A stretch of DNA of 21,097 bases from positions 1-21,097 of IMG/VR virus record IMGVR_UViG_3300021093_002950. One strand, given 5' to 3'. A model generated the notes under the pieces. It was not told the DNA's origin and searched no databases. It saw only the letters and a program-made list of their open reading frames with translations. Below are positions 5,193 through 20,669 of the stretch, piece by piece. A program made the position numbers and the translations under genes. The stretch is from a virus. Position 1 is the first letter of the stretch; the number at the start of each line of letters is the position of its first letter.

Positions 5193-6371
5193 ATGCCATA
5201 TAGATCTGGAATATGGAAAATAAATACGGTAAAAGATCGAACATTAGATAGCCTTTGGAGAGCAGATTCTATTGTTGGAGAGCCTGGATGCTTGTTAGTT
5301 TGGGGCGCGAATCAATGTGGACAACTTGGTGATGGAACTGTAAGCCCAAGATCTTCACCTGTGCAAGTGTCTGGAACAAACTGGATTTATATTGCTTCTG
5401 GTGATAAACATGCAGCTGCTATTAAAGCTGATGGCACATTGTGGACTTGGGGAGATAACACACTTGGGCAACTTGGAGATTGTACATGTTTTCCAAGATC
5501 TTCGCCAACTCAAATACCAGGATCCTGGTCTTCTGTAGGTGCTGGTGGACAACATACACTTGCCACTAAATCGGATGGAACTTTATGGAGTTGGGGATCA
5601 AATCTTTATGGTCAACTTGGGGATAACTGTGCAGCTGGAAATATCCCAAGATCTTCACCTGTACAAATCCCTGGTACTAATTGGAATAAACTCGTTGGTG
5701 GATATTATAGCAGTTATGCAACAACAATCACTGGTTCATTATATGGATGGGGATATAATGACTATGGTCAAGTTGGTGACAACACCGTACAACCAAGATC
5801 TTCACCAACTCAAATACCAGGATCTAATTGGTGTGAAATAGGTTCAGGATTTTATCATGCACTTTCAATCAAATCTGATGGAACCATGTGGTCATGGGGT
5901 AATAACTATTATGGGCAACTAGGTATTGGAACAGCTTGTTTTTCTTTTGGTGGTGGTTGTACAGGAACTTCTCCAGATAGATCTTCACCAACTCAAGTTC
6001 TTGGTTCCTGGTTTAAAACTTCTGGTGGTCAAAGTGCTAGTTATGCATCAGATCGTAATGGTAACCTCTTTGCATGGGGTCTTAATACTGTTGGACAACT
6101 AGTTGGCGCTACAAGCAGCGGCGCAAATGGTGGATGTCGTTGTATTGTTGTAGCCCAATCTAGTTGTTGGAAAAATATTATGGCTGGTGGAGCTAATCAT
6201 GTCCTCGTTTTTTCTTGCTGCAATCTATTATATAATGGTGGGAATAATATGTGCGGACAACTTGGAAATAATAGTTTAAGTTCTTGTAATGGGCTTAGTC
6301 AAGTAACTGCATTTTGTACTTGGACTAGTGTTGCATCATTTGGCGATAGTAGTTACGGCCTTAAGTGTTAG
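5193..6371 (+). CDS. RCC1-type seven-bladed propeller, likely tail adhesin (copy 1)
   Basis: A 392-residue protein made almost entirely of RCC1/alpha-tubulin-suppressor-like repeats. Seven signature turns can be read: WGANQCGQLG, WGDNTLGQLG, WGSNLYGQLG, WGYNDYGQVG, WGNNYYGQLG, WGLNTVGQLV and GGNNMCGQLG, each about 50 residues apart and preceded by a KSDGTLWSW-type strand. Linkers PRSSPTQIPGSNW connect the blades. Seven repeats are the number needed to close an RCC1 propeller. The N-terminus (YRSGIWKINTVKDRTLDSLW) has a GxWxIN tag, also visible in the copy at 7195, that may dock the protein on the tail. I count 18 tryptophans and many cysteines in the C-terminal third. RCC1 in eukaryotes is a Ran exchange factor, but nothing suggests that here; a virion adhesin following a late promoter is more likely. 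Two paralogues lie downstream. Confidence 0.85.
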   Translation: MPYRSGIWKINTVKDRTLDSLWRADSIVGEPGCLLVWGANQCGQLGDGTVSPRSSPVQVSGTNWIYIASGDKHAAAIKADGTLWTWGDNTLGQLGDCTCFPRSSPTQIPGSWSSVGAGGQHTLATKSDGTLWSWGSNLYGQLGDNCAAGNIPRSSPVQIPGTNWNKLVGGYYSSYATTITGSLYGWGYNDYGQVGDNTVQPRSSPTQIPGSNWCEIGSGFYHALSIKSDGTMWSWGNNYYGQLGIGTACFSFGGGCTGTSPDRSSPTQVLGSWFKTSGGQSASYASDRNGNLFAWGLNTVGQLVGATSSGANGGCRCIVVAQSSCWKNIMAGGANHVLVFSCCNLLYNGGNNMCGQLGNNSLSSCNGLSQVTAFCTWTSVASFGDSSYGLKC

Positions 6372-7194: not shown

Positions 7195-8454
7195 ATGTCT
7201 CAATCCGTAATAACAAATCAAAAAAAAGGTCTATGGTCTATCAATGATGTATACAATGGAATAAATTTCGGGTGTTGGAACTACGAATCTGTTTCATCTG
7301 GATTGTATGGTCTTTATGTGTGGGGGCATAATCCTCATGGTGAATTTGGAGCTAAAAGAACATCACCGAGCCGAAGCCATGTTCCAATTTTAGTTGGTGC
7401 TGTTGATTGTTGGGATATTAATATGAATCCTGATGATATGATAGGTTATTATGCTATAATGGCAAAAAAAACTGATGGTAGTGTATTTTCCTGGGGACAT
7501 AATAATCATGGACAACTAGGAAACGGATCTTTCACACCTGCATCTTCACCATCTCAAATTGCAGGTATTTGGAGATGTGTTTCTCAAGGAACATACTTTG
7601 GCGCTGGTGTTAAATGTGATGGAACTCTTTGGACATGGGGGCACAATCCTCATGGACAACTTGGGCTTAACTTTGATGGCGGCGATCGCCCCACTCCCCA
7701 ACAAGTAGGAACCAATACTAATTGGTGCTCAGTCAATGCTGACCATCACCAAGGATTTGCAATTAAAACCGATAATACTCTATGGGCATGGGGACATAAT
7801 CCTCATGGAAATCTTGGTGTTGGCGATAACACTTCCCGATCCTCGCCGACTCAAATACCAGGATCTTGGACTTGCACAAGAGGCGGTCACCGAGGAACTT
7901 TTGGAAGAAAAACAGATGGTAGTCATCATGCATGGGGACCAAATCCTCATGGAGTTCTTGGAGTTGGTAACCAAACCAGCTATTGTTCTCCGGTTGGAAT
8001 AGGGGGATGCTGGTGTAATATTTCAAAACCTGTTAACAGTCACTGGACGACTGTCGGTCGCAATTGCGATGGAGGCCTATATGTATGGGGGCATAATATC
8101 CACGGTGAAAGGGGAGATTGTTGCGCTGACAGGAACAATACCCTTAGTCCTTGTCTAATTCCTCATGGGACTAACTGGTGTTGGGGCGCTGCGGGACATA
8201 ATCAAGCTTGGGGTGTTAAATGCGACGGAACTTTATGGGGGTGGGGACAAAATCCTCATAGTGAAATTGATATTGGTTCGAGTCCTAGATCTTCCCCACA
8301 ACAAATTGTAGGAACCAACTGGAGAGATATTGCTGCTGGGCACTGGATGATTGTTGCGAGAACTGATGGCGTTTCTCAGTGTCAACTTGGAATATGTCCT
8401 GAAAACTATCCAAACGTTCGTTATCCATCTTTTGGGGTTTGTTGTTATAACTAA
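7195..8454 (+). CDS. RCC1-type seven-bladed propeller, histidine-rich copy 2
   Basis: A 419-residue RCC1-repeat protein. Seven blades carry the turns WGHNPHGEFG, WGHNNHGQLG, WGHNPHGQLG, WGHNPHGNLG, WGPNPHGVLG, WGHNIHGERG and WGQNPHSEID. Compared with copy 1, two positions of the turn are histidine in almost every blade (His-x-x-His). Because equivalent positions of a propeller lie on a ring, this suggests a ring of histidines. The N-terminus has the tag KKGLWSINDVYNGI. I count about 23 tryptophans (over 5 per cent). Cysteine pairs appear in the C-terminal third (GGCWCN, GDCCADRNN). The gene follows the hypothetical gene by five bases, with GAGGA as ribosome binding site. Likely a tail adhesin related to the copies at 5193 and 10357. 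Confidence 0.85.
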   Translation: MSQSVITNQKKGLWSINDVYNGINFGCWNYESVSSGLYGLYVWGHNPHGEFGAKRTSPSRSHVPILVGAVDCWDINMNPDDMIGYYAIMAKKTDGSVFSWGHNNHGQLGNGSFTPASSPSQIAGIWRCVSQGTYFGAGVKCDGTLWTWGHNPHGQLGLNFDGGDRPTPQQVGTNTNWCSVNADHHQGFAIKTDNTLWAWGHNPHGNLGVGDNTSRSSPTQIPGSWTCTRGGHRGTFGRKTDGSHHAWGPNPHGVLGVGNQTSYCSPVGIGGCWCNISKPVNSHWTTVGRNCDGGLYVWGHNIHGERGDCCADRNNTLSPCLIPHGTNWCWGAAGHNQAWGVKCDGTLWGWGQNPHSEIDIGSSPRSSPQQIVGTNWRDIAAGHWMIVARTDGVSQCQLGICPENYPNVRYPSFGVCCYN

Positions 8455-8499: not shown

Positions 8500-9099
8500 A
8501 TGACTAAACTAAAAACCATATATGATTATATCAAAATCATTCCAAATGCTGTTCCCGAAGAGCATTTAAAAATATTAAACGATTTTATTTTAAGTGAAAA
8601 GAATGATAGTAGCCCAGCATTAGTTGGATACAAGGAGGATCAAAATCAAGATTTAAGTTATAGAAATACACATTGGATTGCTATTCCAAATAGTTTACGA
8701 GAAAATATTGAAAATGCTATAATAAACCTATATGATCTTATTTTAAAATCAGTATATGAATGTGAACTTAAAAAGTTAGAACCAGTTCAAATGTTATACT
8801 ATCCTTTGGGTGGTAAATATGATATACATAATGATTCTGAAGAAGTTATTGATGGTAAACTTAAAAGAGTTGCAGACAGAGACATTAGTATTATTTGTTA
8901 TCTTAATGATGATTATGAGGGTGGAGAGTTGGAGTTTCCTTCTTTAGGGTTAAAAATAAAACCAATGAGAGGAACAATCATTACTTTCCCTTCATATTAT
9001 GAATATTCTCATAGAGTTCATCCCGTAACGAAAGGTGAACGTTTTAGTTTGGTAACTTGGATTGAAACTAATGAAAGACTATACACAAGAGAAGATTGA
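8500..9099 (+). CDS. 2OG-Fe(II) oxygenase, prolyl-4-hydroxylase-like
   Basis: A 199-residue protein with the full double-stranded beta-helix signature of 2-oxoglutarate and iron dependent oxygenases: H110-x-D112 (in YDIHNDSE), a strand ISIICYLNDDYEGGELEFP, distal histidine H171 in YSHRVHPVTKGERFSLVTW, and R181 to bind the 2-oxoglutarate carboxylate. The length and SHRVxPVxxGxR motif fit the prolyl hydroxylase/PiuC-like group; the group hydroxylates protein side chains or small molecules, and the substrate here is unknown. Its place between two RCC1 genes and just before a glycosyltransferase makes a virion protein a reasonable candidate. The ATG directly follows an in-frame TGA at 8497-8499; no good ribosome binding site is visible. 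The 3' end overlaps the next gene by 29 bases. Confidence 0.85.
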   Translation: MTKLKTIYDYIKIIPNAVPEEHLKILNDFILSEKNDSSPALVGYKEDQNQDLSYRNTHWIAIPNSLRENIENAIINLYDLILKSVYECELKKLEPVQMLYYPLGGKYDIHNDSEEVIDGKLKRVADRDISIICYLNDDYEGGELEFPSLGLKIKPMRGTIITFPSYYEYSHRVHPVTKGERFSLVTWIETNERLYTRED

Positions 9100-10333
9100 T
9101 ATTTTAAATAATATCAACGATCAAGCAAAACAATTATATGATAATCATGATTATGTGGGTGCTATAAAATGTTTTGAACAGATACCAGAAAAAGATTTTC
9201 CGGAAGAGTTTAAATCTAATCTATCTAAATGTTATTATCATAATCAACAAGCTTCAAAAGCCATAGATCTTTTGTCATCATGTAAATTTTCTGATGTAGG
9301 TATGGATTATACGGATTTCCAATTAGATATGGCTATTTATAAAAATGCAATTGGAAACTTCAATTTTGCATTAGAAGTTTATGAAAATTTAGATCAATCA
9401 GATTCAAGAGTTAGATTTAACATTGGATGGCATATGATGCGAAAGGGGAAGTTTAAGGAAGCATTTAAACTTCTTGAGTGTGGATCTCAATGCCGAGCAT
9501 GGGGTCATGAATACATTCATCTTGAGAATAAAAAAATAGATTCTCAAAAAAGATGGGATGGGAAACCAACAAAAACACTTTTATTGTTTTTGGAAGGAGG
9601 TTTTGGAGATTGTTTGATTTTTTTAAGGTGGGCATCATATCTTAGAACATTTTGTGAAAAACTTATTATTACGGCGCCTATACAACTTTGTAGATTACTT
9701 TCTAATGCTGGATATGAAGTCACTTCAGATAATATGATACCAATATTAGAATATGATCATTATATACCAGGAATGTCGATTCCTAACTTCATTGATGTTG
9801 AACACCCACTTGATAAGGTAACATTGCCATATATTAAAAGTATTAGCGAACCTTACATTACAAGGGGAATGGACATACTATCTTCTACCAATAAATTAAA
9901 GATTGGTGTTCGGTGGATGGGAAATCAAAAATTTGAACATGATCAGTTTCGATCAATTCCTAAAGAAAAGTTTTATAATCTAACTCATTACGGATCTTTA
10001 TTTTCTTTACAACTAGAGGAGAGTGAAGATGATGATCATTTTATTCCGTGTAGACACATTATTAAAGATTGGCAAGATACATATTCTGTATTTTCTGGAC
10101 TTGATTTATTGGTTACAAGCTGCACTTCAACGGCACATCTGGCTGGCGCAATGAATATACCAACAATTGTTATAGTTCCACTAGTTTGTTATTTTGTATG
10201 GGCAAATGATGATTTGCGTTGGTATGATAGTGTAACAGTTGTTAGACAAAATCAATATGGCGATTGGTCTGGGGCAATAGAAGAGATGTATAAACTAGTA
10301 GAATCTTTTAGTAATAAATATAGTAAAGATTAA
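9071..10333 (+). CDS. TPR protein with C-terminal glycosyltransferase (GT9/GT41-like) domain
   Basis: I place the start at the ATG at 9071 (420 residues); an in-frame TTG at 9062 is weaker. The first ~140 residues are helical TPR-like repeats (ndqAKQLYDNHDYVGAIKCFEQI; SKCYYHNQQASKAIDLL; FNIGWHMMRKGKFKEAFKLLE). Residues ~165-415 match the glycosyltransferase domain that bacteria often attach to TPRs: LLLFLEGGFGDCLIFLRWA (nucleotide-sugar loop), IGVRWMGNQKFEHDQFRSIP, LFSLQLEE, IIKDWQDTYSVFSGLDLLVT, then TSTAHLAGAMNIPTIVIVP and a final DSVTVVRQ. This resembles GT9 heptosyltransferases and O-GlcNAc-transferase-like enzymes. In a window that also encodes ADP-heptose synthesis, a heptosyl donor is plausible, and the TPRs may grip a protein acceptor such as an RCC1 neighbour. 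Donor and acceptor are inferred. Confidence 0.78.
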   Translation: MKDYTQEKIDILNNINDQAKQLYDNHDYVGAIKCFEQIPEKDFPEEFKSNLSKCYYHNQQASKAIDLLSSCKFSDVGMDYTDFQLDMAIYKNAIGNFNFALEVYENLDQSDSRVRFNIGWHMMRKGKFKEAFKLLECGSQCRAWGHEYIHLENKKIDSQKRWDGKPTKTLLLFLEGGFGDCLIFLRWASYLRTFCEKLIITAPIQLCRLLSNAGYEVTSDNMIPILEYDHYIPGMSIPNFIDVEHPLDKVTLPYIKSISEPYITRGMDILSSTNKLKIGVRWMGNQKFEHDQFRSIPKEKFYNLTHYGSLFSLQLEESEDDDHFIPCRHIIKDWQDTYSVFSGLDLLVTSCTSTAHLAGAMNIPTIVIVPLVCYFVWANDDLRWYDSVTVVRQNQYGDWSGAIEEMYKLVESFSNKYSKD

Positions 10334-10356: not shown

Positions 10357-11724
10357 ATGGCATATCAACTACCACCAAAAAGTGATGGGCAAAGTTCGCG
10401 TTCTTTAAAAGCACCAAATACTCTGAATAAGATATATTCTGCTATCAATTCTGGTATTAATACATCAGATCCAAGTGGGTATTTTACTGCAGGTGATCCT
10501 AATGATAATAGACTATTTGTATGGGGTTACGATACTGGCGGCAACCACGCTGTTGTGGGTGCTGCATATGGGATGATACATCCTTATCCGACGTGCACTC
10601 TGGTTCCTATTAGAGTTCCGGGAACCAACTGGTCAACTGTAAGTATGGGAAACTGTACAGTGGTCGCCACTAAAAATGATGGCACTGCATGGGTATGGGG
10701 ACATAATGGTCACGGCACACTTGGGATAGGTGGTTTCGGTAATACTCTTTCTTCACCAACACAGTTGCCGGGAACTACCTGGGCAAGACTTTTTGGTGGC
10801 TGCCATAACTCTTTTGGCATTAAATGTGATGGAACTTTATGGGGATGGGGCCTGGGCGATCATGGGCAACTGGGCATGGGGTGCAAAGGGAACCAGACCC
10901 TTGCATCACCAACTCAAATACCGGGCAATAACTGGAAAATGGTTTCTGGTTCAAGACATCATAGTACTGCTGTCAAGTGTGATGGAACTCTTTGGACATG
11001 GGGACATGGTAACTATGGTGCATTAGGTATTTGTTGTGTTACTTGCCCGATTCTTGGAACGTGTTGTAGTCCTACATGTTATGATCCACTTAACTGGCCA
11101 CAGAATAACGGATTCAGGCCTTGCTGCACCGACAGCTCCTCCATTTATTATAATTTAAGCTCACCAGTTCAAGTTCCTGGTAATAACTGGATTTGTGCTA
11201 AAACCATGCATGGCCATTCTAACGTTGCTCTCAAATCTGATGGAACTCTTTGGACATGGGGACATGGCAACCATGGGCTACTGGGGCTTGGTGACAATAG
11301 TGATAGATATTGTCCTGTGCAAGTTCCTGGCTCAAACTGGGTTGATATTGGTGGTGGACAGGCGCGTGGCCACGCTAGAAAATCTGATGGAACTTTGTGG
11401 GGATGGGGTCATAATCCCTACGGTCAACTTGGAACCAATGATACCTCCCCCAGGTGCTCACCAATTCAAACTTCCTGTGGTGGAACAAACTGGACTAAAA
11501 TATTTTGTACTATTGATGCTCATCACTCTGCAGCAATCAAATCTGATGGAACTCTTTGGACTTGGGGTTATAATCCTTACGGTGAACTTGGCAATGGAAC
11601 AACCGGCGCTTGCTACACACCACAAAATGTTGGAGCAGCTACATCTAACTTTTGGCGGGAAGTAGAAACAACTCATCATCAGACTGCTGCTATTGCTTGC
11701 GTTCCTTCAAACTATACTTTATAA
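10357..11724 (+). CDS. RCC1-type seven-bladed propeller with cysteine-rich insert (copy 3)
   Basis: A 455-residue RCC1-repeat protein with seven turns: WGYDTGGNHA, WGHNGHGTLG, WGLGDHGQLG, WGHGNYGALG, WGHGNHGLLG, WGHNPYGQLG and WGYNPYGELG. Blade 4 carries an insertion at about residues 226-265 with eight cysteines in 32 residues (C226, C227, C230, C236, C237, C241, C256, C257). The N-terminus (SLKAPNTLNKIYSAINSGIN) differs from the other copies and may bind another partner. About 21 tryptophans are present. At DNA level the blade core GATGGAACTCTTTGGAC repeats near 10981, 11239 and 11543. The gene is visibly richer in G+C than the genes on both sides, as expected for a cassette conserved for structure. 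Probable virion adhesin. Confidence 0.83.
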   Translation: MAYQLPPKSDGQSSRSLKAPNTLNKIYSAINSGINTSDPSGYFTAGDPNDNRLFVWGYDTGGNHAVVGAAYGMIHPYPTCTLVPIRVPGTNWSTVSMGNCTVVATKNDGTAWVWGHNGHGTLGIGGFGNTLSSPTQLPGTTWARLFGGCHNSFGIKCDGTLWGWGLGDHGQLGMGCKGNQTLASPTQIPGNNWKMVSGSRHHSTAVKCDGTLWTWGHGNYGALGICCVTCPILGTCCSPTCYDPLNWPQNNGFRPCCTDSSSIYYNLSSPVQVPGNNWICAKTMHGHSNVALKSDGTLWTWGHGNHGLLGLGDNSDRYCPVQVPGSNWVDIGGGQARGHARKSDGTLWGWGHNPYGQLGTNDTSPRCSPIQTSCGGTNWTKIFCTIDAHHSAAIKSDGTLWTWGYNPYGELGNGTTGACYTPQNVGAATSNFWREVETTHHQTAAIACVPSNYTL

Positions 11725-13058: not shown

Positions 13059-14054
13059 ATGAAAAGAAATACATCGTTTTTAATTAGTGGTGGATCTGGG
13101 AGAGTTGTTACTGCTATTCCAGCACTTGAAAAGTTTGCTAGACTAAATCCAGATGATGATTTTAAAGTTTTGGTGCATGGTTGGGACATGATGTATTGGA
13201 GTCATCCTCTCTTACAAGAAAAAACTTTTGAAGTGAGTCAAAAAGGAATTTTTGAAAACTATATTAAAAACTATAATCTTGTATCTCCAGAACCATATCA
13301 TGTTTCTGGATATTATAACCAAGAAAAATCCCTTGCTGAAGCTTTTGATGAAATAATTAATAAAACCACAGATCATAGTGATTTAGATAAACCCAATTTA
13401 TATGTTAGTAATGAAGAGATTGCAAAAATAAAATCAAATATTGAATCTTTCAAACGTCTAGTTAACAAGGATAAGATTATTGTTTTCCAACCTTTTGGAA
13501 GTGGAGCAAGAATCGAAAGTGATATATTTATAGATTCCTCTGGTAGAAGTATGTATCCAGAAGATTTTACAACCCTGTGTAAACATCTATCTCAATATGC
13601 CGGTATCATTTATTTTGGTCCCCCAGATTTATTTCAGTTTTCTAAATGCGAGGACGCATTCTGTCCGCCAACAGCAGATTTAAGAATGTACATGGCAACC
13701 ATAAAAGAATCTGATTATTTCTTTGGTTGTGATAGTGTTGGACAACATATAGCACGTGCTTTTGATAAAAATGGCCTTATTTTAATGGGATCTACTTTTG
13801 AAAGTAACGTATCTTATCCAGATTATTTTAAATTTTATAGAAATAAAAATGTAAAAGTAAAATATAATCCGATTAGAATTGGAGGATTAGATTGTCAACT
13901 GGCAGATAGGACAAATGATGGTGCAATGAAATTTAACGAAACTCAGTTAAAAGAAATTTTTACAATGATTGGAGAAGATTTAAAACCCTCTTATGGAAAA
14001 ACACATGTCGTTAAAACAAAATCAAGAAAACTTACAGAGTCCAAAGGATTTTAG
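13059..14054 (+). CDS. GT9/heptosyltransferase-like glycosyltransferase
   Basis: A 331-residue protein with a GT-B fold pattern. The N-terminal half begins FLISGGSGRVVTAIPALEKFA, matching the 'G-G-x-G-D/R-hhh-xxPhh' opening of heptosyltransferase-like enzymes. The C-terminal half has KIIVFQPFGSGARIES (donor phosphate loop), GRSMYPEDFTTLCKHL, GIIYFGPPD, ADLRMYMATIKESDYFFGCD and SVGQHIARAFDKNGLILMGS, the usual GT9 'D-S-h-x-x-H-h-A' helix and final strand. Genes for ADP-heptose synthesis follow directly, so a heptosyltransferase role is the simplest reading, though other nucleotide-sugar donors cannot be excluded. It is the first gene after a 104-base gap and overlaps the next gene's ATG by about 50 bases. 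Confidence 0.72.
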   Translation: MKRNTSFLISGGSGRVVTAIPALEKFARLNPDDDFKVLVHGWDMMYWSHPLLQEKTFEVSQKGIFENYIKNYNLVSPEPYHVSGYYNQEKSLAEAFDEIINKTTDHSDLDKPNLYVSNEEIAKIKSNIESFKRLVNKDKIIVFQPFGSGARIESDIFIDSSGRSMYPEDFTTLCKHLSQYAGIIYFGPPDLFQFSKCEDAFCPPTADLRMYMATIKESDYFFGCDSVGQHIARAFDKNGLILMGSTFESNVSYPDYFKFYRNKNVKVKYNPIRIGGLDCQLADRTNDGAMKFNETQLKEIFTMIGEDLKPSYGKTHVVKTKSRKLTESKGF

Positions 14055-14496
14055 AGATTGTGGTTCTTGTGTAGAGTGTTGTAAAAACTTATACATCGAA
14101 GATGTATATGGACATTCGGTAACGCCCGGAAATCCATGTTTTTTTCTTTGTAAAGAAAGGAGATGCACTATACATGAAAATAGACCTCAAACGTGTAGAA
14201 ATTTTCAGTGTGCATGGTCACAACATCTTCTTCCAGAATGGATGAAACCAGATCAATCTAATGTCTTAGTTTCTGTTGAAAACTGGGGTGATTGTAAGCA
14301 ATATCAAATGCTTAGAGTTATATCTATTAATGAAGGTTATGATGTAAGAACTTTTGCATGGATTCTTGATTTTTGTTTGAATAATAATACACCTATGGCT
14401 TATGAAATTCCTGGATCTAAAGGAGAGGTTAAATATATTGGAGATGCTGAGTTCATGAACTACATACGTAACAATAAAAATAAAAAGAATGATTAA
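14005..14496 (+). CDS. YkgJ-type CxxCxxCC metal-cluster protein
   Basis: I take the ATG at 14005; an in-frame ATG at 13993 is also possible. The protein carries the hallmark CxxCxxCC motif (DCGSCVECCKNL; C23, C26, C29, C30 when numbered from 13993) followed by further cysteines at 49, 53, 58, 68 and 73 in CTIHENRPQTCRNFQCAW. This is the YkgJ/UPF0153 'putative zinc- or iron-chelating' family, to which parts of the flagellin lysine methylase FliB are related. The biochemical role of most members is unknown. Its position inside a sugar operon, overlapping the heptosyltransferase-like gene and the adenylyltransferase gene, suggests a part in the same modification process, perhaps as a redox or maturation factor. 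The overlap at 14489-14496 couples it to the next gene. Confidence 0.75.
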   Translation: MSLKQNQENLQSPKDFRDCGSCVECCKNLYIEDVYGHSVTPGNPCFFLCKERRCTIHENRPQTCRNFQCAWSQHLLPEWMKPDQSNVLVSVENWGDCKQYQMLRVISINEGYDVRTFAWILDFCLNNNTPMAYEIPGSKGEVKYIGDAEFMNYIRNNKNKKND

Positions 14497-14890
14497 AGTT
14501 TTTGTAAATGGAACTTTCGATCTTCTACATCGTGGACATTTAGAACTTTTAAACTATGCTAAAAGTCTTGGTGATTTTTTATTAGTTGGTATTGATAGTG
14601 ATCACAGAGTTTCTGAAAAAAAAGGTCCAACAAGACCTATACATAATCAAGAGGAGAGAAAATTTTTTTTAGAGAATCTAAAAGCAGTTAATGCCGTTGA
14701 TGTTTTTTCTACAGACAATCAGTTAGAAGAAATGATAAAATCTTATGGACCTGATATAATGGTAGTAGGATCTGATTGGAAAGAAAAGTCTGTGATAGGT
14801 TCTTATTATGCAGCAAAACTTTTATTTTTTGATAGGGTAGGTGATTATGCCACAACAAAAACCATTCAAAGTGTTATTGATAGGAGATAG
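14489..14890 (+). CDS. hldC: Heptose-1-phosphate adenylyltransferase (HldE C-domain/HldC-like)
   Basis: A 133-residue nucleotidyltransferase of the cytidylyltransferase-like superfamily. Residues 7-17 (NGTFDLLHRGH) give the HxGH active site at H14 and H17. It continues with GDFLLVGIDSDHRVSEKKGPTRPI, EERKFFLENLKAVNAVDVF, PDIMVVGSDWKEKSVIG and a terminal DYATTKTIQSVIDR, which follows the HldE C-terminal domain segment by segment, including the KGPxRPI and TTKxI motifs. The reaction expected is D-glycero-beta-D-manno-heptose 1-phosphate plus ATP to ADP-heptose. A glycerol-3-phosphate cytidylyltransferase (TagD type) is the alternative, but the adjacent kinase and the HldD gene favour heptose. 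It overlaps the preceding gene by eight bases and the kinase gene by 44. Confidence 0.85.
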   Translation: MIKVFVNGTFDLLHRGHLELLNYAKSLGDFLLVGIDSDHRVSEKKGPTRPIHNQEERKFFLENLKAVNAVDVFSTDNQLEEMIKSYGPDIMVVGSDWKEKSVIGSYYAAKLLFFDRVGDYATTKTIQSVIDRR

Positions 14891-15605
14891 TTGTATTGAT
14901 GAATATGTTTATGGTGTAGTTGAAAGATTGAACCCAGAAGCACCTGTTCCTATTTTAAAATATGTAAGAACAGAACAAAAACAAGGTATGGCTTGGAATG
15001 TTTATAATAATCTAAAAGCATTTGGATTAGAAGTTTGTATGATAACGAATCAAGAAAAGATTACTAAAACAAGATATATTGATGAAAAGACAAATCAACA
15101 AATTCTTCGTGTAGATAAAGAAGTAGTTTGTAAACCAATAGAATGTGAAATTTTAAAAGAAAAATATGATGCAGTTGTGATTAGTGATTACAATAAAGGG
15201 TTTATAACTAGTTCAAAAATGTTTGAGATTGTATATAATTTTAAATGTCCAGTTTTTATTGATACTAAAAAAACAGTATTACCAGAGTATAACTGTTATA
15301 TAAAAATTAATGAACAAGAATATAATAAACTTGATGAACAATATAAAGGTGCAAATAATCTAATAGTTACTTACGGTGATAGGGGCGCAAAGTATGATGG
15401 GGTTTTGTATCCTGGGGAAAAGGTAAACGTGTATGATGTTGTTGGTGCTGGGGATACTTTTTTATCTGCACTTGTCTACTTTTATTTAAAATATGGTAGA
15501 ATAGATGAAGCAATACCCTATGCCAACAAAGCAGCATCTATCGCTGTGCAAAATAGAGGAACTTATGTATTGATGGAGGATGATATAAATGAAATATGTG
15601 GTTGA
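14847..15605 (+). CDS. hldA: Heptose-7-phosphate kinase (HldE N-domain/HldA-like, PfkB family)
   Basis: I choose the ATG at 14847 (252 residues) with TAGG as ribosome binding site; an in-frame GTG lies two codons earlier. The opening VLLIGDSCIDEYVYGVVERL, then NPEAPVPILK, is the HldE kinase signature. TNQQILRVDKEVV, VVISDYNKGFIT, FIDTKK and the PfkB catalytic loop VGAGDTFLSAL follow, with the catalytic Asp at residue 203. A stretch of roughly 25 residues after the AWNV substrate loop (the usual G-V-D-E-x-G region) is missing, so this is a compact version of the ~320-residue bacterial domain. Expected reaction: phosphorylation of D-glycero-D-manno-heptose 7-phosphate at O1. It follows the adenylyltransferase, the reverse of the domain order in fused HldE. 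Confidence 0.85.
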   Translation: MPQQKPFKVLLIGDSCIDEYVYGVVERLNPEAPVPILKYVRTEQKQGMAWNVYNNLKAFGLEVCMITNQEKITKTRYIDEKTNQQILRVDKEVVCKPIECEILKEKYDAVVISDYNKGFITSSKMFEIVYNFKCPVFIDTKKTVLPEYNCYIKINEQEYNKLDEQYKGANNLIVTYGDRGAKYDGVLYPGEKVNVYDVVGAGDTFLSALVYFYLKYGRIDEAIPYANKAASIAVQNRGTYVLMEDDINEICG

Positions 15606-15906
15606 TATTGATGGAACTATTTGCAATAATACTTTTGGTAAGTATGAAGAAGCAGTTCCATTTAAAAATAGAATTGAAAAGATTAATAAACTTTATAATA
15701 ATGGACATGAGATTTGGTATTTTACCGCAAGAGGTATGAGCCAAAATCCTCCTCCATCAAAAGCATGTGCTGAGTGGTATTCCTTAACTAAAAAACAACT
15801 AGATGAATGGGGATGTAAATATAATCATCTTTATATGGGAAAACCATCTGCTGATTTTTATATTGATGATAAGGCTATTCATTCTGATATATTTTTTGAA
15901 AAATAA
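15589..15906 (+). CDS. Small HAD phosphatase, candidate heptose bisphosphatase
   Basis: A 105-residue HAD-superfamily protein. Motif I is VVDIDGTIC with D6 and D8, motif II is FTARG with T46, K85 lies in YMGKPSADF, and motif IV is D93-D94 in YIDDKA. There is no cap domain. The length and layout resemble the EcbF/BcbF capsule-biosynthesis phosphatase family. In the heptose pathway a phosphatase (GmhB in E. coli, a different HAD branch) removes the 7-phosphate between the kinase and the adenylyltransferase steps. This gene follows the kinase directly with a 17-base overlap, so it is the obvious candidate for that missing step. A GGAGG ribosome binding site lies in the end of the kinase gene. 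The substrate is inferred from position. Confidence 0.78.
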   Translation: MKYVVDIDGTICNNTFGKYEEAVPFKNRIEKINKLYNNGHEIWYFTARGMSQNPPPSKACAEWYSLTKKQLDEWGCKYNHLYMGKPSADFYIDDKAIHSDIFFEK

Positions 15907-15909
15907 ATA
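15903..15909 (+). promoter_or_regulatory. Possible late promoter word ATAAATA
   Basis: ATAAATA overlaps the TAA stop of the HAD gene and lies 16 bases before the ATG at 15919. In this A/T-rich stretch a chance match is quite possible. Confidence 0.25.
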
Positions 15910-15918
15910 AAAAATGAT

Positions 15919-16557
15919 ATGAAACATGCAAAGATAGATTTATTTCCAACGTCTATAATTAAAATAGATTTATCTGATTATTTTACATCTCAAGATCAAG
16001 GTGAGATGATTAAAGATATTGATTATCTAATTAACTCTGGAATGTATGAGAATACTGGAAATCATCCTCTTTACCAAACTAAAATTATACTATTTAATAA
16101 TGATCGTCCAAAAGTTTGGACAAAGTTGAAAGAATCATTTTATAACGCTTGTTATTTTTATTTGGAACAAGTTCCAGAGTTTTGTTCTAAACACGATTTG
16201 AGTACTATAAATCCAATCGATTCTCATGCCTGGGCATATAAATCTTGGCACTCTTTAAATAAAAAACAAAATAGTAATCCTATCCATACACATTCTCCAG
16301 CATTTCTTTCTGGAGTCTTTTACCTAGATTTACCAATTAGTGATTATAAAAAAGGGACAGAATTTTTTGATCCAAGAGGTTCCTTATATATGACAGATAA
16401 ATCATATCAAATAGAACCAAGTTTATTTTCTTGGATAATTTTTCCTGCTTGGATTCCACATAGGGCTTGTTTAATAGATTCTGAAAAACCTAGATATACC
16501 ATAGCAGCTAATATGTTTATTTCAATCTATAGCAAAAATGAACCCAGTAACAAATGA
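15919..16557 (+). CDS. Putative 2OG-Fe(II) oxygenase (TIGR02466-like)
   Basis: A 212-residue protein with a jelly-roll oxygenase pattern: W-A-Y-K-S-W-H in the core, H123-T-H125 in NPIHTHSPAFLSGVFYLD, FFDPRG, a turn before FSWIIFPAWIPHRACLI with H181, and R192 in KPRYTIAANMF. These correspond to the HxH/D...H...R arrangement and SGVYY/FPxWxxH/RxxxxxN strings of a family of uncharacterised 2OG-Fe(II) oxygenases common in marine phages and bacteria. It is distinct from the prolyl-hydroxylase-like gene at 8500. A role in sugar or protein hydroxylation is possible but unproven. The gene overlaps the cupin gene by 20 bases, which points to joint expression. Confidence 0.68.
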   Translation: MKHAKIDLFPTSIIKIDLSDYFTSQDQGEMIKDIDYLINSGMYENTGNHPLYQTKIILFNNDRPKVWTKLKESFYNACYFYLEQVPEFCSKHDLSTINPIDSHAWAYKSWHSLNKKQNSNPIHTHSPAFLSGVFYLDLPISDYKKGTEFFDPRGSLYMTDKSYQIEPSLFSWIIFPAWIPHRACLIDSEKPRYTIAANMFISIYSKNEPSNK

Positions 16558-16906
16558 CATAAAAATAGTTCCCAAAGGTTGGGGATTTGAAAAATGGATT
16601 GTAAATAATAAAGATTACTGTGGAAAACTTTTGTACTTTGTTAAAGGTAAAAAGTGTTCTTGGCACTATCATATGATCAAAGATGAAACCTTCTATATTC
16701 AAAGTGGAAAAATATTACTTAAGTATTCTAAAGAAGATGATTTAAATGAAGCACATGAAATAATCCTCAATAAAGGTGAAAGATATCACATTTATCAAGG
16801 ACTAAGACATCAAATGATTGCTCTTGAAGATACCGAGTTATTTGAATTTTCTACTCAACATCTTGATGAAGATAGTATCAGAGTTATGCAAGGAGATACT
16901 CTTTGA
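16538..16906 (+). CDS. Cupin-fold protein, possible sugar isomerase
   Basis: A 122-residue single-domain cupin. The metal ligands are all visible: H43 and H45 (SWHYH), E50 (KDETF) and H91 (GLRHQ), with the first cupin motif followed by FYIQSGKIL. The opening PKGWGFEKWIVNN and GKLLYFVKGK resembles the lead-in to the cupin domain of mannose-6-phosphate isomerase/sugar-nucleotide proteins. Cupins include sugar-phosphate isomerases, epimerases and sugar-binding regulators. In this operon it could be an isomerase or epimerase for a heptose or another sugar phosphate. This is the last gene of the plus-strand operon; its final 23 bases overlap, convergently, the end of the minus-strand hldD gene. 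Confidence 0.78.
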   Translation: MNPVTNDIKIVPKGWGFEKWIVNNKDYCGKLLYFVKGKKCSWHYHMIKDETFYIQSGKILLKYSKEDDLNEAHEIILNKGERYHIYQGLRHQMIALEDTELFEFSTQHLDEDSIRVMQGDTL

Positions 16907-17672
16907 CAGATTTAAAATTATATTTTGGTAACCAACTCATATCCGCACAAGTATGAGTTTGATATTTTGTTTTTAAGTGATCGGGGAACGGGATATAGTC
17001 AATCTCACTCCCTTCTTTTTTTGCAACTAGTTCTGCAACCTCTTGAAAAGAGATTGGATTTGCTGTGCCAATATCATAAACTCCACTTGGAGCATCATTG
17101 TTTATGACAATATCAATAATATCATTAACATAAACAAAATCTCTAAAAAACTGATCTGATCCCTCAAATAGTTTAATCTTTCCAGTTTCTTTTGATTGTT
17201 TTGTAAATTTACTTATTGGACTCGCTTGATCTCCCTTATGATCTTCACCTTCTCCATATACATTAAAGTATCTAAAACCTTGGATTAAAGAAAACTTATC
17301 TAAACTATCTAATACAGCATAATCGATTTGTAACTTACTGATCGCATACTGATTGAGTGGATTAATCTGTCCTTTAGTATTACCATATACCGATGCTGAT
17401 GATGCATACTTAACTGGTATATCATGTTGAATAGCATGTTCAAGAAGTTGGATTGTAAAGTAAACATTATAATGATGTAGTGTATTGATATTTTTTTCAG
17501 TTGTAGAAGAGATAGCTCCCTGATGAATGATCAAGGATATTTTTTCCCATTCATTAAACTCCCTTAAAAAACGATAAGCATCATCAACATCTATTAAAAG
17601 AACATCATGATTATGTAAATATTTGCAAAAATGTTTTCCAATGAATCCTGAAGATCCTGTAAGTAAAATCAT
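16884..17672 (-). CDS. hldD: ADP-L-glycero-D-manno-heptose 6-epimerase (HldD)
   Basis: A 262-residue short-chain-dehydrogenase-type epimerase; I start it at the ATG at 17672 (MILLTGSSGFIG), because nine in-frame residues upstream lie before the Rossmann glycine motif. The match to HldD is segment by segment: HQGAISSTTE, YASSASVYG, NQYAISKLQ with Y109 and K113, GFRYFNVYGEGEDHKGDQAS with the second catalytic lysine K146, KLFEGSDQFFRDFVYVNDII, SGVYDIGTANPISFQEVAEL, and IDYIPFPDHLKTKYQTHTCA. It is about 50 residues shorter than the E. coli enzyme, mainly in the N-terminal half. The enzyme converts ADP-D,D-heptose to ADP-L,D-heptose using NADP. The start follows the halogenase stop by one base (TGACATG). 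It converges on the cupin gene. Confidence 0.92.
   Translation of the reverse strand: MILLTGSSGFIGKHFCKYLHNHDVLLIDVDDAYRFLREFNEWEKISLIIHQGAISSTTEKNINTLHHYNVYFTIQLLEHAIQHDIPVKYASSASVYGNTKGQINPLNQYAISKLQIDYAVLDSLDKFSLIQGFRYFNVYGEGEDHKGDQASPISKFTKQSKETGKIKLFEGSDQFFRDFVYVNDIIDIVINNDAPSGVYDIGTANPISFQEVAELVAKKEGSEIDYIPFPDHLKTKYQTHTCADMSWLPKYNFKSVKEYLLA
16934..16971 (+). terminator. Rho-independent-type hairpin for the plus-strand sugar operon
   Basis: AACTCATA (16934-16941) pairs with TATGAGTT (16952-16959) around a 10-base loop, followed by a T-rich tract TGATATTTTGTTTTT. It lies 28 bases beyond the cupin stop, inside the antisense of hldD, where a terminator for plus-strand transcripts would be expected. 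Confidence 0.45.
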
Positions 17673-17673
17673 G

Positions 17674-19311
17674 TCAAAAATGCTTATAAAAATTATCATA
17701 CAAATATTGTGCTAATGTTGGTGATTCATCAGCAATTTTTTGCCATTCTTTTTGTTTTTCTTCCCATTTTACCATCATAGTATCTAGAGTTTTTTTAGCC
17801 TCATCAATTTTTGGACCATAGTTATAAAAAGAATCATGTACGATATTTTCCATACTAAGAACATTAAAGTTAAGACCATTCGCAATACAGTGCTCACCAC
17901 CACGTATATTATGATCATGTACGTATGATTTCCTACCAATTAACTGACCAAATGCATCGATACATTCTCTTATTTCTTTTACTTGATTAGTTTGAGCATC
18001 ATCAATTAAATATCCAGCGTAAGATCTTCTTCTAACGTCTCTCCAATACTCAGTATCATCTCTAAGAGAAAGTGCATAATGTAATGCAACAAACTTGCAT
18101 AGACCATCAAACATTATTCTTGTTGTAGTATTGTATGCATCGATTTCAAACTGATTAAAATGATCTCTATCAAGATAACTTACAAGTTTCATAAGGAACT
18201 CATGAACTGTAAAGAGACCAGTGCTTTCTAATGGTTCAATGAATCCACCAGCAAGACCGATAGCTACAACATTTTTAACCCAGATTCTACGATGAATACC
18301 AATACGCATATTAATATCTTTGAACTCAAGATCATCAACATTCCTATTAGGGTCATGATGAGACATTTTATTAGATTTAAGATGTCTTTTAAACTCTTCT
18401 AAAGCATCTTCCTTGGAGATATATTTATCAGAATACACGTATCCAGTTCCGATTCTTGACCATAAAGGAATGTTCCAAACCCATCCATTACCTAGAGCAG
18501 TACAGTTCGTATATGGTTCTAGTTCTTTTTCCTTATCTGTATACTGAATTTTTGTTGCCCACGCTTTATTATTTGGAATCAGATGATCATATGATAGGAA
18601 AGGTTCTTCCATTTCTTGACCTAATAGGAGACTCTTCCATCCAGTACAATCAATAAATAAATCTCCTTGAATAATTCTACCATCATCAAGAATAACCTCT
18701 TTAATACCATCTTCATTAGAAACAACTTTTTTTATTTCGGCAGGAATATGTTTTACACCATTTGGAATACATACATGATCTCTTAAAAAGATTCCAAACT
18801 TAGTAGCATCAAAATGATATGAAGTAGAATGATTAAATGAAAAATCTGGAAATAGTTTTCCTTTTTCATCTTTGTTTATTTTATTATTTTCAATCAAAGC
18901 CATGTGTGGATAGATCGTTCTACAGTAATCTTCCACTGGAGTTTCTGGGTAAAAAACTTTTTTAAATTGCCATGCTTTTGCCCCTATATCGCCAAAAAGT
19001 TCTTTCGGAAGCCATGGTCTTCCAAAAGGATAATGAAATCCACCAGCATCTTTTTTATAAAAATCTGTGAACTTAATACTAGACTTGTAAGATGCATCTG
19101 TGTATTTAAAAAGAGTCGTTTCATCAATACCCATTGCATGTAACCAATAAGTAAAGTATCCTAGAGTGCTTTCCCCAACACCAATGATCGGTACTTTAGG
19201 ACTTTCAATAACGGTTATATCTCTTTCTGGAAAGAATTTTTTTAAAGTGGTTGCAGAAAACCATCCAGCAGTTCCACCACCAACAACTACAATTTTAAAT
19301 GATCTATACAT
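17674..19311 (-). CDS. prnA: Flavin-dependent tryptophan halogenase (PrnA-like)
   Basis: A 545-residue protein of normal length for the tryptophan halogenase family. It starts with a FAD-binding motif (IVVVGGGTAGWFSATTL), continues with IIGVGESTLGYFTYWL, the catalytic lysine K76 in SYKSSIKFTDF, the GNGWVWNIPLWSRIGTGYVY segment with the diagnostic W-x-W-x-I-P, and AGGFIEPLESTGLFTVHEF with the conserved Glu. The family uses FADH2, O2 and chloride or bromide to halogenate an indole ring. Relatives are well known in cyanophage genomes, where the substrate has not been established to my knowledge. The gene is the first of a two-gene minus-strand unit with hldD and is read from the divergent promoter region before the glutaredoxin gene. 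Confidence 0.9.
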   Translation of the reverse strand: MYRSFKIVVVGGGTAGWFSATTLKKFFPERDITVIESPKVPIIGVGESTLGYFTYWLHAMGIDETTLFKYTDASYKSSIKFTDFYKKDAGGFHYPFGRPWLPKELFGDIGAKAWQFKKVFYPETPVEDYCRTIYPHMALIENNKINKDEKGKLFPDFSFNHSTSYHFDATKFGIFLRDHVCIPNGVKHIPAEIKKVVSNEDGIKEVILDDGRIIQGDLFIDCTGWKSLLLGQEMEEPFLSYDHLIPNNKAWATKIQYTDKEKELEPYTNCTALGNGWVWNIPLWSRIGTGYVYSDKYISKEDALEEFKRHLKSNKMSHHDPNRNVDDLEFKDINMRIGIHRRIWVKNVVAIGLAGGFIEPLESTGLFTVHEFLMKLVSYLDRDHFNQFEIDAYNTTTRIMFDGLCKFVALHYALSLRDDTEYWRDVRRRSYAGYLIDDAQTNQVKEIRECIDAFGQLIGRKSYVHDHNIRGGEHCIANGLNFNVLSMENIVHDSFYNYGPKIDEAKKTLDTMMVKWEEKQKEWQKIADESPTLAQYLYDNFYKHF

Positions 19312-19857: not shown

Positions 19858-20074
19858 TCTAGTATTTGGTTCATTTCTAACAGTCTTATTTCTTATAGTG
19901 GGACTTATAGCAGGTTGGGTAGCAAGAGAATACATGATGAACTATCGGGAAATACCAAGACCTCACCCCGAAATGTTTGATGATCAAGGAAACTTGATTC
20001 CAGATGAGGTAATAGCATTTAATTTTGAAAACTATCATGACTACGACGAAGAAGACGACAGCAGCAGCGACTAA
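19844..20074 (+). CDS. Small single-pass membrane protein
   Basis: A 76-residue protein. Residues 2-26 are one hydrophobic segment (LAVSLVFGSFLTVLFLIVGL, then IAGWVA) followed by R-E-Y-M-M-N-Y, so a short N-terminus outside and a C-terminus in the cytoplasm is the likely topology. The soluble part contains REIPRPHPEMFDDQGNLIPDEV and ends in a very acidic, serine-rich tail. I have seen this type in cyanomyovirus genomes as a conserved protein of unknown role. AGGAG lies nine bases before the ATG, one of the better ribosome binding sites here. It overlaps the next gene by 38 bases. Confidence 0.75.
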   Translation: MLAVSLVFGSFLTVLFLIVGLIAGWVAREYMMNYREIPRPHPEMFDDQGNLIPDEVIAFNFENYHDYDEEDDSSSD

Positions 20075-20669
20075 AACAAAAACGACTGCGACCAGAAAAC
20101 CAGTAGCATCTAAAACAAAAGTTACTGCAGAAATGGTTCCAGATCTTCCTGCAAATCCTTTTATTTTTGAGATTCTTAATGCTGTAGTAAAAATGAGTAC
20201 GGATGAGAAGAAAGTAGAAGTACTTCAAAAATACGTACATCCTGCTCTAAAAACTATTTTTATTTGGAACTTTGATGAAACAGTAGTTTCAGCCCTTCCA
20301 GAAGGCGACGTGCCCTATGCCGCTGTTGATGAAATGGATTCCTTTAAGGGGACTCTGAGTGAAAAGATTACGGATGCCGTTGATAAGATGAAAGAACTTG
20401 GATCTACTTCTTTAGGATCTCAAGATCAAGGACGCTCATCAATTCGTAAAGAATATCAACGTTTTTATAATTTTGTAAAAGGTGGTAATGATGGACTCAG
20501 TTCTCTTCGCAGAGAGACAATGTTTATTAATGTTCTTCAAGGACTTCATCCATTAGAAGCAGAAATTGTTTGTCTTTGTAAGGATAAAAAACTTGAGACC
20601 AAATATAAGATTAGTAGAGAGACCATTGCCGAAGCATATCCAGATATTCAATGGGGAGGTCGTTCATGA
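20037..20669 (+). CDS. Conserved cyanophage protein, DUF6433-like
   Basis: I place the start at the ATG at 20037 (210 residues); a TTG four codons upstream is less likely. The first ~30 residues are a lysine/threonine/alanine-rich, disordered basic tail (MTTTKKTTAAATKTKTTATR). The rest is an alpha-helical globular domain with NPFIFEILNAVVKMSTDEKK, VEVLQKYVHPALKTIFIWNF, a glycine/serine-containing hinge near TSLGSQDQG, and SSLRRETMFINVLQGLHPLE followed by EIVCLCKDKKL. I recall this family as a conserved unknown in T4-like cyanophages (DUF6433); helical HPLEAEIV segments of this kind occur in DNA-replication-associated phage proteins, but no catalytic motif is visible. ATGA overlap with the next gene. 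Confidence 0.75.
   Translation: MTTTKKTTAAATKTKTTATRKPVASKTKVTAEMVPDLPANPFIFEILNAVVKMSTDEKKVEVLQKYVHPALKTIFIWNFDETVVSALPEGDVPYAAVDEMDSFKGTLSEKITDAVDKMKELGSTSLGSQDQGRSSIRKEYQRFYNFVKGGNDGLSSLRRETMFINVLQGLHPLEAEIVCLCKDKKLETKYKISRETIAEAYPDIQWGGRS

Follow-up and report, generated by a model that had tools for sequence, protein, structure and literature searches.

The stretch of DNA analysed here, called the window, comprises the 21,097 nucleotides of the IMG/VR virus record IMGVR_UViG_3300021093_002950 and belongs to a T4-like cyanophage. Its closest relative in the core genes is Synechococcus phage S-SRM01 from a reservoir; the conserved window gene at 20025-20669 shares 80% identity with its counterpart in S-SRM01 and 64% with that in P-SSM2. 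The original prediction, made from the sequence alone, had read four genes of the window as a cassette for ADP-heptose synthesis, encoding an HldC-like adenylyltransferase, an HldA-like kinase, a HAD phosphatase, and an HldD-like epimerase. All four reading frames are open at the predicted positions (Table 1) with their catalytic motifs intact, and hldA overlaps hldC by 44 nt. Two genes had been passed over, namely a conserved cupin gene and a gene for a GT9-like glycosyltransferase. No GmhA, the usual phosphoheptose isomerase, was found in the window. We propose that the cupin is very probably a sedoheptulose-7-phosphate isomerase, of a sugar isomerase type not previously recognised, which takes the place of GmhA.

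Table 1. Genes of the heptose cassette in the window and the basis of their assignment
Gene product	Position	Strand	Length	Basis
GT9-fold glycosyltransferase, candidate heptosyltransferase	13059..14054	+	331 aa	AlphaFold model, Foldseek/VIA, hhalign
HldC-like heptose-1-phosphate adenylyltransferase	14489..14890	+	133 aa	TIGR02199, 4.9e-31
HldA-like heptose-7-phosphate kinase, PfkB fold	14847..15605	+	252 aa	TIGR02198, 2.8e-41
Small HAD phosphatase, probable GmhB step (heptose-1,7-bisphosphate 7-phosphatase)	15589..15906	+	105 aa	TIGR01689 EcbF-BcbF, 2.1e-10
2-oxoglutarate-Fe(II) oxygenase, inserted within the cassette	15919..16557	+		PF13759, 4.2e-11
Cupin, proposed sedoheptulose-7-phosphate isomerase in GmhA's place	16538..16906	+	122 aa	Context, fusion, ligands, fold
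HldD-like ADP-glyceromanno-heptose 6-epimerase	16884..17672	-	262 aa	TIGR02197, 2.5e-64

Among the NCBIfam models, the HldC-like protein matched TIGR02199 best (107.5 bits), the HldA-like protein matched TIGR02198 by far best (141.6 bits), and the HldD-like protein matched TIGR02197 best (217.4 bits). As these scores are clear but lie under the equivalog cut-offs of 181.5, 345, and 274.6 bits, respectively, the three proteins are divergent homologues. Although it is classed only as such, the HldA-like protein is predicted to work like HldA: it matched the HldA structure PDB 4e84 (3e-15) and carries the catalytic GAGD motif of the PfkB fold (G200-A201-G202-D203), which is invariant in 14 homologues. 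The HxGH nucleotidyltransferase motif of HldC is present as H14-R-G-H17, with H14, G16, and H17 invariant in 14 homologues. HldD aligned with E. coli HldD (1eq2) at 3.4e-43, and Y109, K113, and K146, which had been equated with residues of the E. coli enzyme, do correspond to its Y140, K144, and K178; they are invariant across 11 phage homologues. An assignment of 14489-14890 as a CDP-glycerol/CTP-type enzyme was rejected, because the HldC family fits better (4.9e-31) than the glycerol-3-phosphate cytidylyltransferase family TIGR01518 (3.3e-19, 69 bits). The family matches are thus those of heptose enzymes and not of CDP-glycerol or dTDP-sugar pathways, which the original prediction had named as the outcome that would count against it.

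The cupin was found alongside hldA, hldC, and the HAD gene in 13 of 13 phage clusters examined, and 35 GenBank phage records carry it. To count associations we used IMG/VR scans anchored separately on the cupin, HldA, and HldC, whose three sets of loci overlap and are not independent samples; counted loci had 4 kb or more of sequence to both sides and were clustered at 90% identity. In these untruncated viral loci the cupin lay near HldA in 41/42 and near HldC in 36/36, though the gene order varies. None of the 42 hldA-anchored and none of the 36 hldC-anchored loci contained gmhA. SIS_2, the GmhA domain, was also absent from 55 whole phage or viral records, including nine complete cyanophage genomes, in a search that was positive in E. 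coli. In phage Bellamy (L401 6988-8961) and the related contigs L403-L409, the cupin lies between two enzymes of the GDP-heptose route, an HddA-type kinase (279 bits to NF049969) and a nucleotidyltransferase of the HddC type. The ADP- and GDP-heptose routes have just the isomerase and phosphatase steps in common. The phage GDP-heptose cassettes of Bellamy and its relatives (HddA, cupin, HddC) lie next to 4,6-dehydratase-like genes.

The comparison that carries most weight came from cellular genomes. In Gracilibacteria (Peregrinibacteria-type genomes), the cupin forms the N-terminal domain of an HldA protein, and genes for GmhB, HldC, and a heptosyltransferase-like protein are adjacent in most examples. 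The sister genomes G131, G183, and G276 have the operon gmhA-hldA-gmhB-hldC-waa. Because this gene order is the same as in the fusion operons, the cupin occupies exactly the place of gmhA. Among 242 Gracilibacteria genomes, 15 encode a strong HldA; nine of these have GmhA and no fusion, five have the fusion and no GmhA, and one has neither at the threshold. Genome G104, whose fusion gene is carried by a contig of 1.24 Mb, gave no GmhA match, and G055 gave one weak SIS match (90 bits) on a contig other than that of the fusion. In G264 and G206, an HddA-like gene adjoins GmhA rather than the cupin. In the TM6 phylum, for which 101 genomes were covered, the cupin was found in 16, HldC/HldE in 16, and both together in 14, mostly on separate contigs. 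GmhA occurs in two TM6 genomes, in one of which (G382) it lies beside HldC, and in none of the 16 with the cupin. Cupin-bearing genomes assigned to DPANN archaea also encode HldA, HldC, or both, and none gave a convincing GmhA match. The P values for the mutual exclusion of GmhA and the fusion among the 15 Gracilibacteria genomes (Fisher, P = 0.002) and for the co-occurrence in TM6 (hypergeometric, P = 2.7e-13) are inflated by co-inheritance; the lineages are not independent samples. The hldA and gmhA frames of the Gracilibacteria genomes G115, G141, G191, G219, and G290 contain many in-frame TGA codons, as would be expected if TGA is read there as an amino acid.

The predicted model of the cupin (predicted local distance difference test, pLDDT, 95) had D-lyxose isomerase at rank 1 in Foldseek (VIA Z 14.4, with 33% identity, the highest among the matches listed). 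Thermococcus phosphomannose isomerases gave a VIA Z of 14.5. In the Pfam family Lyx_isomer (PF07385, cut-off 20.8 bits) the window cupin scored 16.0 bits, and its relatives L104 and L112 scored 25.0 and 22.6 bits. D-lyxose/D-mannose isomerases and type-II phosphomannose isomerases are single-domain cupins, to which the window cupin is related in sequence, fold, and metal-ligand pattern, and the manno aldose-ketose chemistry proposed for it is theirs. The conversions of fructose 6-phosphate to mannose 6-phosphate and of sedoheptulose 7-phosphate to heptose 7-phosphate involve an identical change at C1-C2. The metal-ligand set is complete (H43, H45, E50, H91), and of 264 phage sequences at least 262 retain it. 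What sets the window cupin apart from the D-lyxose/phosphomannose-type cupins is its linkage to heptose genes and an HxH motif; in Gracilibacteria, the phosphomannose-type paralogues that stand alone have QxH, with Q instead of H at position 43. GmhA and the cupin share the proposed reaction and the operon position, but their folds are unrelated: the candidate isomerase has a cupin fold and lacks the SIS domain of GmhA.

The small HAD protein was not matched by the GmhB family (TIGR00213/NF006506); its best NCBIfam match was the EcbF/BcbF-type phosphatase TIGR01689 (40.6 bits), and it matched the capsule protein PDB 9iqw at 1e-9, or 3.6e-18 by profile. The HAD motif residues D6xD8, T46, K85, and D94 are invariant and D93 is almost so. 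The small HAD is present in 33 of the 42 hldA-anchored viral clusters and GmhB in one, and 31 of 32 phage or viral records have no GmhB elsewhere in the genome. The heptose clusters of Gracilibacteria show the reverse, with GmhB present and no small HAD detected. Therefore, the small HAD probably stands in for GmhB, although the case is weaker than that for the cupin. In RefSeq cyanophages (L002 14312-14993, L006 16055-16769, and others), the HAD protein is labelled 'phosphoheptose isomerase' and the cupin 'cysteine dioxygenase'. We rejected the former label (phrog_1238), as HAD motifs are present and the SIS domain is absent; both labels are probably wrong.

Taken together, we consider it likely that the cassette makes ADP-heptose, with the cupin in place of GmhA, the HAD in place of GmhB, and a GT9-fold transferase that probably uses the heptose. 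In the proposed pathway, the cupin would isomerise sedoheptulose 7-phosphate (step 1), the HldA-like kinase would produce the 1,7-bisphosphate (step 2), the small HAD would take off the 7-phosphate (step 3), the HldC-like enzyme would attach AMP (step 4), and HldD would epimerise C6 (step 5). The GT9-fold transferase would then probably transfer the heptose to an acceptor, perhaps the adjacent phage adhesins or a host surface glycan (step 6). Sequence homology supports the predicted steps 2, 4, and 5, and catalytic motifs support steps 2 to 5. Genome context, fusion, mutual exclusion, and fold point to steps 1 and 3; step 6 and its acceptor we infer. Compared with the pathway based on GmhA and GmhB, the kinase, adenylyltransferase, and epimerase are homologous and their catalytic residues conserved, whereas the phage cassette has the cupin and the small HAD for GmhA and GmhB, and its kinase and adenylyltransferase are each a short protein of their own. 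The original prediction had let the pathway start at heptose 7-phosphate; the later steps hold, and the step that precedes them is very probably that of the overlooked cupin.

Such a cassette is not new in phages, as it is present in known cyanophages; 'heptose-related LPS synthesis' genes (LPS, lipopolysaccharide) were announced earlier for cyanophage SynMITS9220M01 (PMC7378029). The whole set occurs in P-SSM2, S-SSM7, S-CAM1, and S-CAM3. In these phages, Sf-FS3, and others, the tail-fibre region contains hldC, hldA, HAD, cupin, and hldD, the last on the opposite strand, which is also the strand pattern of the window; S-SM2, P-TIM68, S-T4, and Sf-CH8 carry versions with shuffled gene order near nrdB. 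The five proteins of P-SSM2, S-SSM7, S-CAM1, S-CAM3, Sf-FS3, S-SM2, and P-TIM68 (T4-like gene clusters 304-308) are the same as those of the window, at ~39-70% identity. Because the same neighbours recur in many cyanophages, the cassette is not a chance assembly. In the annotated tail-fibre-region cassettes, the genes upstream include one of the GT9-like type and one for a NodU-like carbamoyltransferase. The window lacks this carbamoyltransferase, and, unlike in the named cyanophage cassettes, an oxygenase gene separates its HAD and cupin genes. At the position of the carbamoyltransferase in relatives, 13993-14496 encodes a putative CxxCxxCC metal-binding protein (PF03692-like, sub-threshold) and overlaps the GT9-like gene. 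Adjoining hldD, 17674-19311 (minus strand) encodes a flavin-dependent tryptophan-halogenase-like protein (PF04820, 5e-100), a relative of which lies within the S-SSM7 cassette. S-T4 (L009) and Sf-CH8 (L010) have cupin, HldA, HAD, and HldC, and no close HldD homologue at the locus; clusters without HldD would end at ADP-D,D-heptose, which may be the product in these two phages.

Pfam and PDB sequence searches with the GT9-like protein returned nothing, and it was placed solely by its predicted fold and by profile comparison. Its AlphaFold model (pLDDT 91) has a GT9 fold, with GT9, WaaF, WaaC, and TibC as the best Foldseek matches and VIA Z scores of 23.4 for 3tov, 21.3 for WaaF, 20.6 for TibC, and 19.5 for WaaC; after these, a chain of the chloroplast NDH complex reached ~19 and the following folds 12.1. 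By hhalign, it matched Gracilibacteria heptosyltransferase-like proteins at 95.5%. The GT-B/GT9 fold is common to WaaC, WaaF, TibC, and the window protein over ~255-280 residues; the latter is, however, only 9-15% identical to them, lacks the N-terminal barrel of TibC, and has Arg15 for the Asp of the N-terminal GxGD motif, which is the catalytic base in TibC. Owing to this replacement, we do not file it as a proven heptosyltransferase. The gene sits among genes for RCC1-repeat proteins, oxygenases, and a GT25 protein. Three RCC1-repeat-like proteins (5193-6371, 7195-8454, and 10357-11724; motif WGHNPHG, PF00415 checked for 7195-8454), whose genes are interleaved with oxygenase and glycosyltransferase genes, are possible modified adhesins. 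A TPR protein is encoded at 9062-10333; its C-terminal half looks GT9-like by eye and gave no family match.

As the modelled fold is that of the heptosyltransferases WaaC, WaaF, and TibC, the heptose may end up on phage adhesins or on the surface of the host. TibC heptosylates adhesins using ADP-D,D-heptose (PMC4358343), and the likeness of the window protein to it, together with the embedding of the cassette in the tail-fibre region in the window and its closest-organised relatives, speaks for adhesins. A different sink, also compatible with a cupin isomerase, has a chance only a little short of even: the sugar might enter the LPS or capsule of the host and block superinfection. Such genes have been read before as LPS modification (PMC7029224), and the variants near nrdB have many sugar genes around them and are not close to tail fibres.

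Several observations weigh against the proposed pathway. Many of the Gracilibacteria and TM6 genomes are probably incomplete metagenome-assembled genomes. The phage Hld proteins score under the NCBI equivalog cut-offs, HldD is absent from many cupin clusters, and about a fifth of the hldA-anchored viral clusters lack the HAD. In the GT9-like family, Arg15 is nearly invariant among the phage proteins, and 35 of 59 loci are without hld genes. Several other cupins reach an equal or higher VIA Z than the isomerases. Moreover, the cupin fold serves many reactions.

One of these might be a later modification; for example, a keto-heptose might be epimerised at C3/C5 in an RmlC-type reaction, as happens in Campylobacter capsule pathways. 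Cupin C3/C5 epimerases of heptoses are known (DdahB/MlghB; PMC7949155), and a dehydratase-like gene lies near the Bellamy cupin. We nevertheless regard this as unlikely, since the cupin is fused to HldA or found in operons without a dehydratase, keeps its full set of metal ligands in nearly all phage sequences, accompanies both the ADP- and the GDP-heptose route, and occupies the gmhA position. Slightly less probable still is a cassette that makes an activated hexose instead of a heptose, with the cupin acting as an ordinary phosphomannose isomerase. The kinship with type-II phosphomannose isomerases would agree with this, as would the QxH-type paralogue that is common in Gracilibacteria, usually without adjoining heptose genes. 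The best families of the other enzymes are, however, HldA, HldC, and HldD; the cupin is also accompanied by GmhB, a heptosyltransferase, and HddA/HddC; and the exchange of H43 for Q43 distinguishes the paralogue, which is a separate protein because genomes with a GmhA operon carry it too. Phages often depend on host metabolites, but a supply of heptose 7-phosphate by host enzymes, with the cupin in an accessory role, for instance that of an anomerase or metal chaperone, is the least probable reading, as GmhA is missing from nearly every cellular genome that has the heptose-linked cupin, and a protein specific for one anomer would not fit both the beta (HldA) and the alpha (HddA) route. The LPS of marine Synechococcus, which the original prediction described as reportedly lacking heptose, also argues against a host supply: heptose is absent from that of WH8102 and CC9311 (PMC4515613), although the closest core-gene relative of the window infects a reservoir Synechococcus. 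An epimerase, a plain phosphomannose isomerase, or an accessory protein thus fits the cupin less well than a heptose-phosphate isomerase does.

With the heptose-phosphate isomerase as the preferred function, the cupin probably founds a new, non-orthologous phosphoheptose isomerase family that takes the place of GmhA in cyanophages and other phages of aquatic habitats, in Gracilibacteria and TM6, and probably in some DPANN archaea, and that serves both the ADP- and the GDP-heptose route, with the phage sugar maybe placed on adhesins by the GT9-fold enzyme. In the open-access literature, we found no report of a cupin-type sedoheptulose-7-phosphate isomerase, of GmhA in Patescibacteria, or of heptose in Dependentiae. 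GmhA is regarded as catalysing the first committed step by which bacteria make heptose, and it is also considered a drug target (PMC11056994). If our assignment is true, a second, unrelated enzyme for this step would account for genomes with HldE but without GmhA, and the two cyanophage labels, for the HAD and for the cupin, would be corrected. Phage use of heptose would become directly testable in hosts whose LPS reportedly contains none, and phages would have a cupin-type sugar isomerase in common with several lineages of very small bacteria and probably with some archaea.

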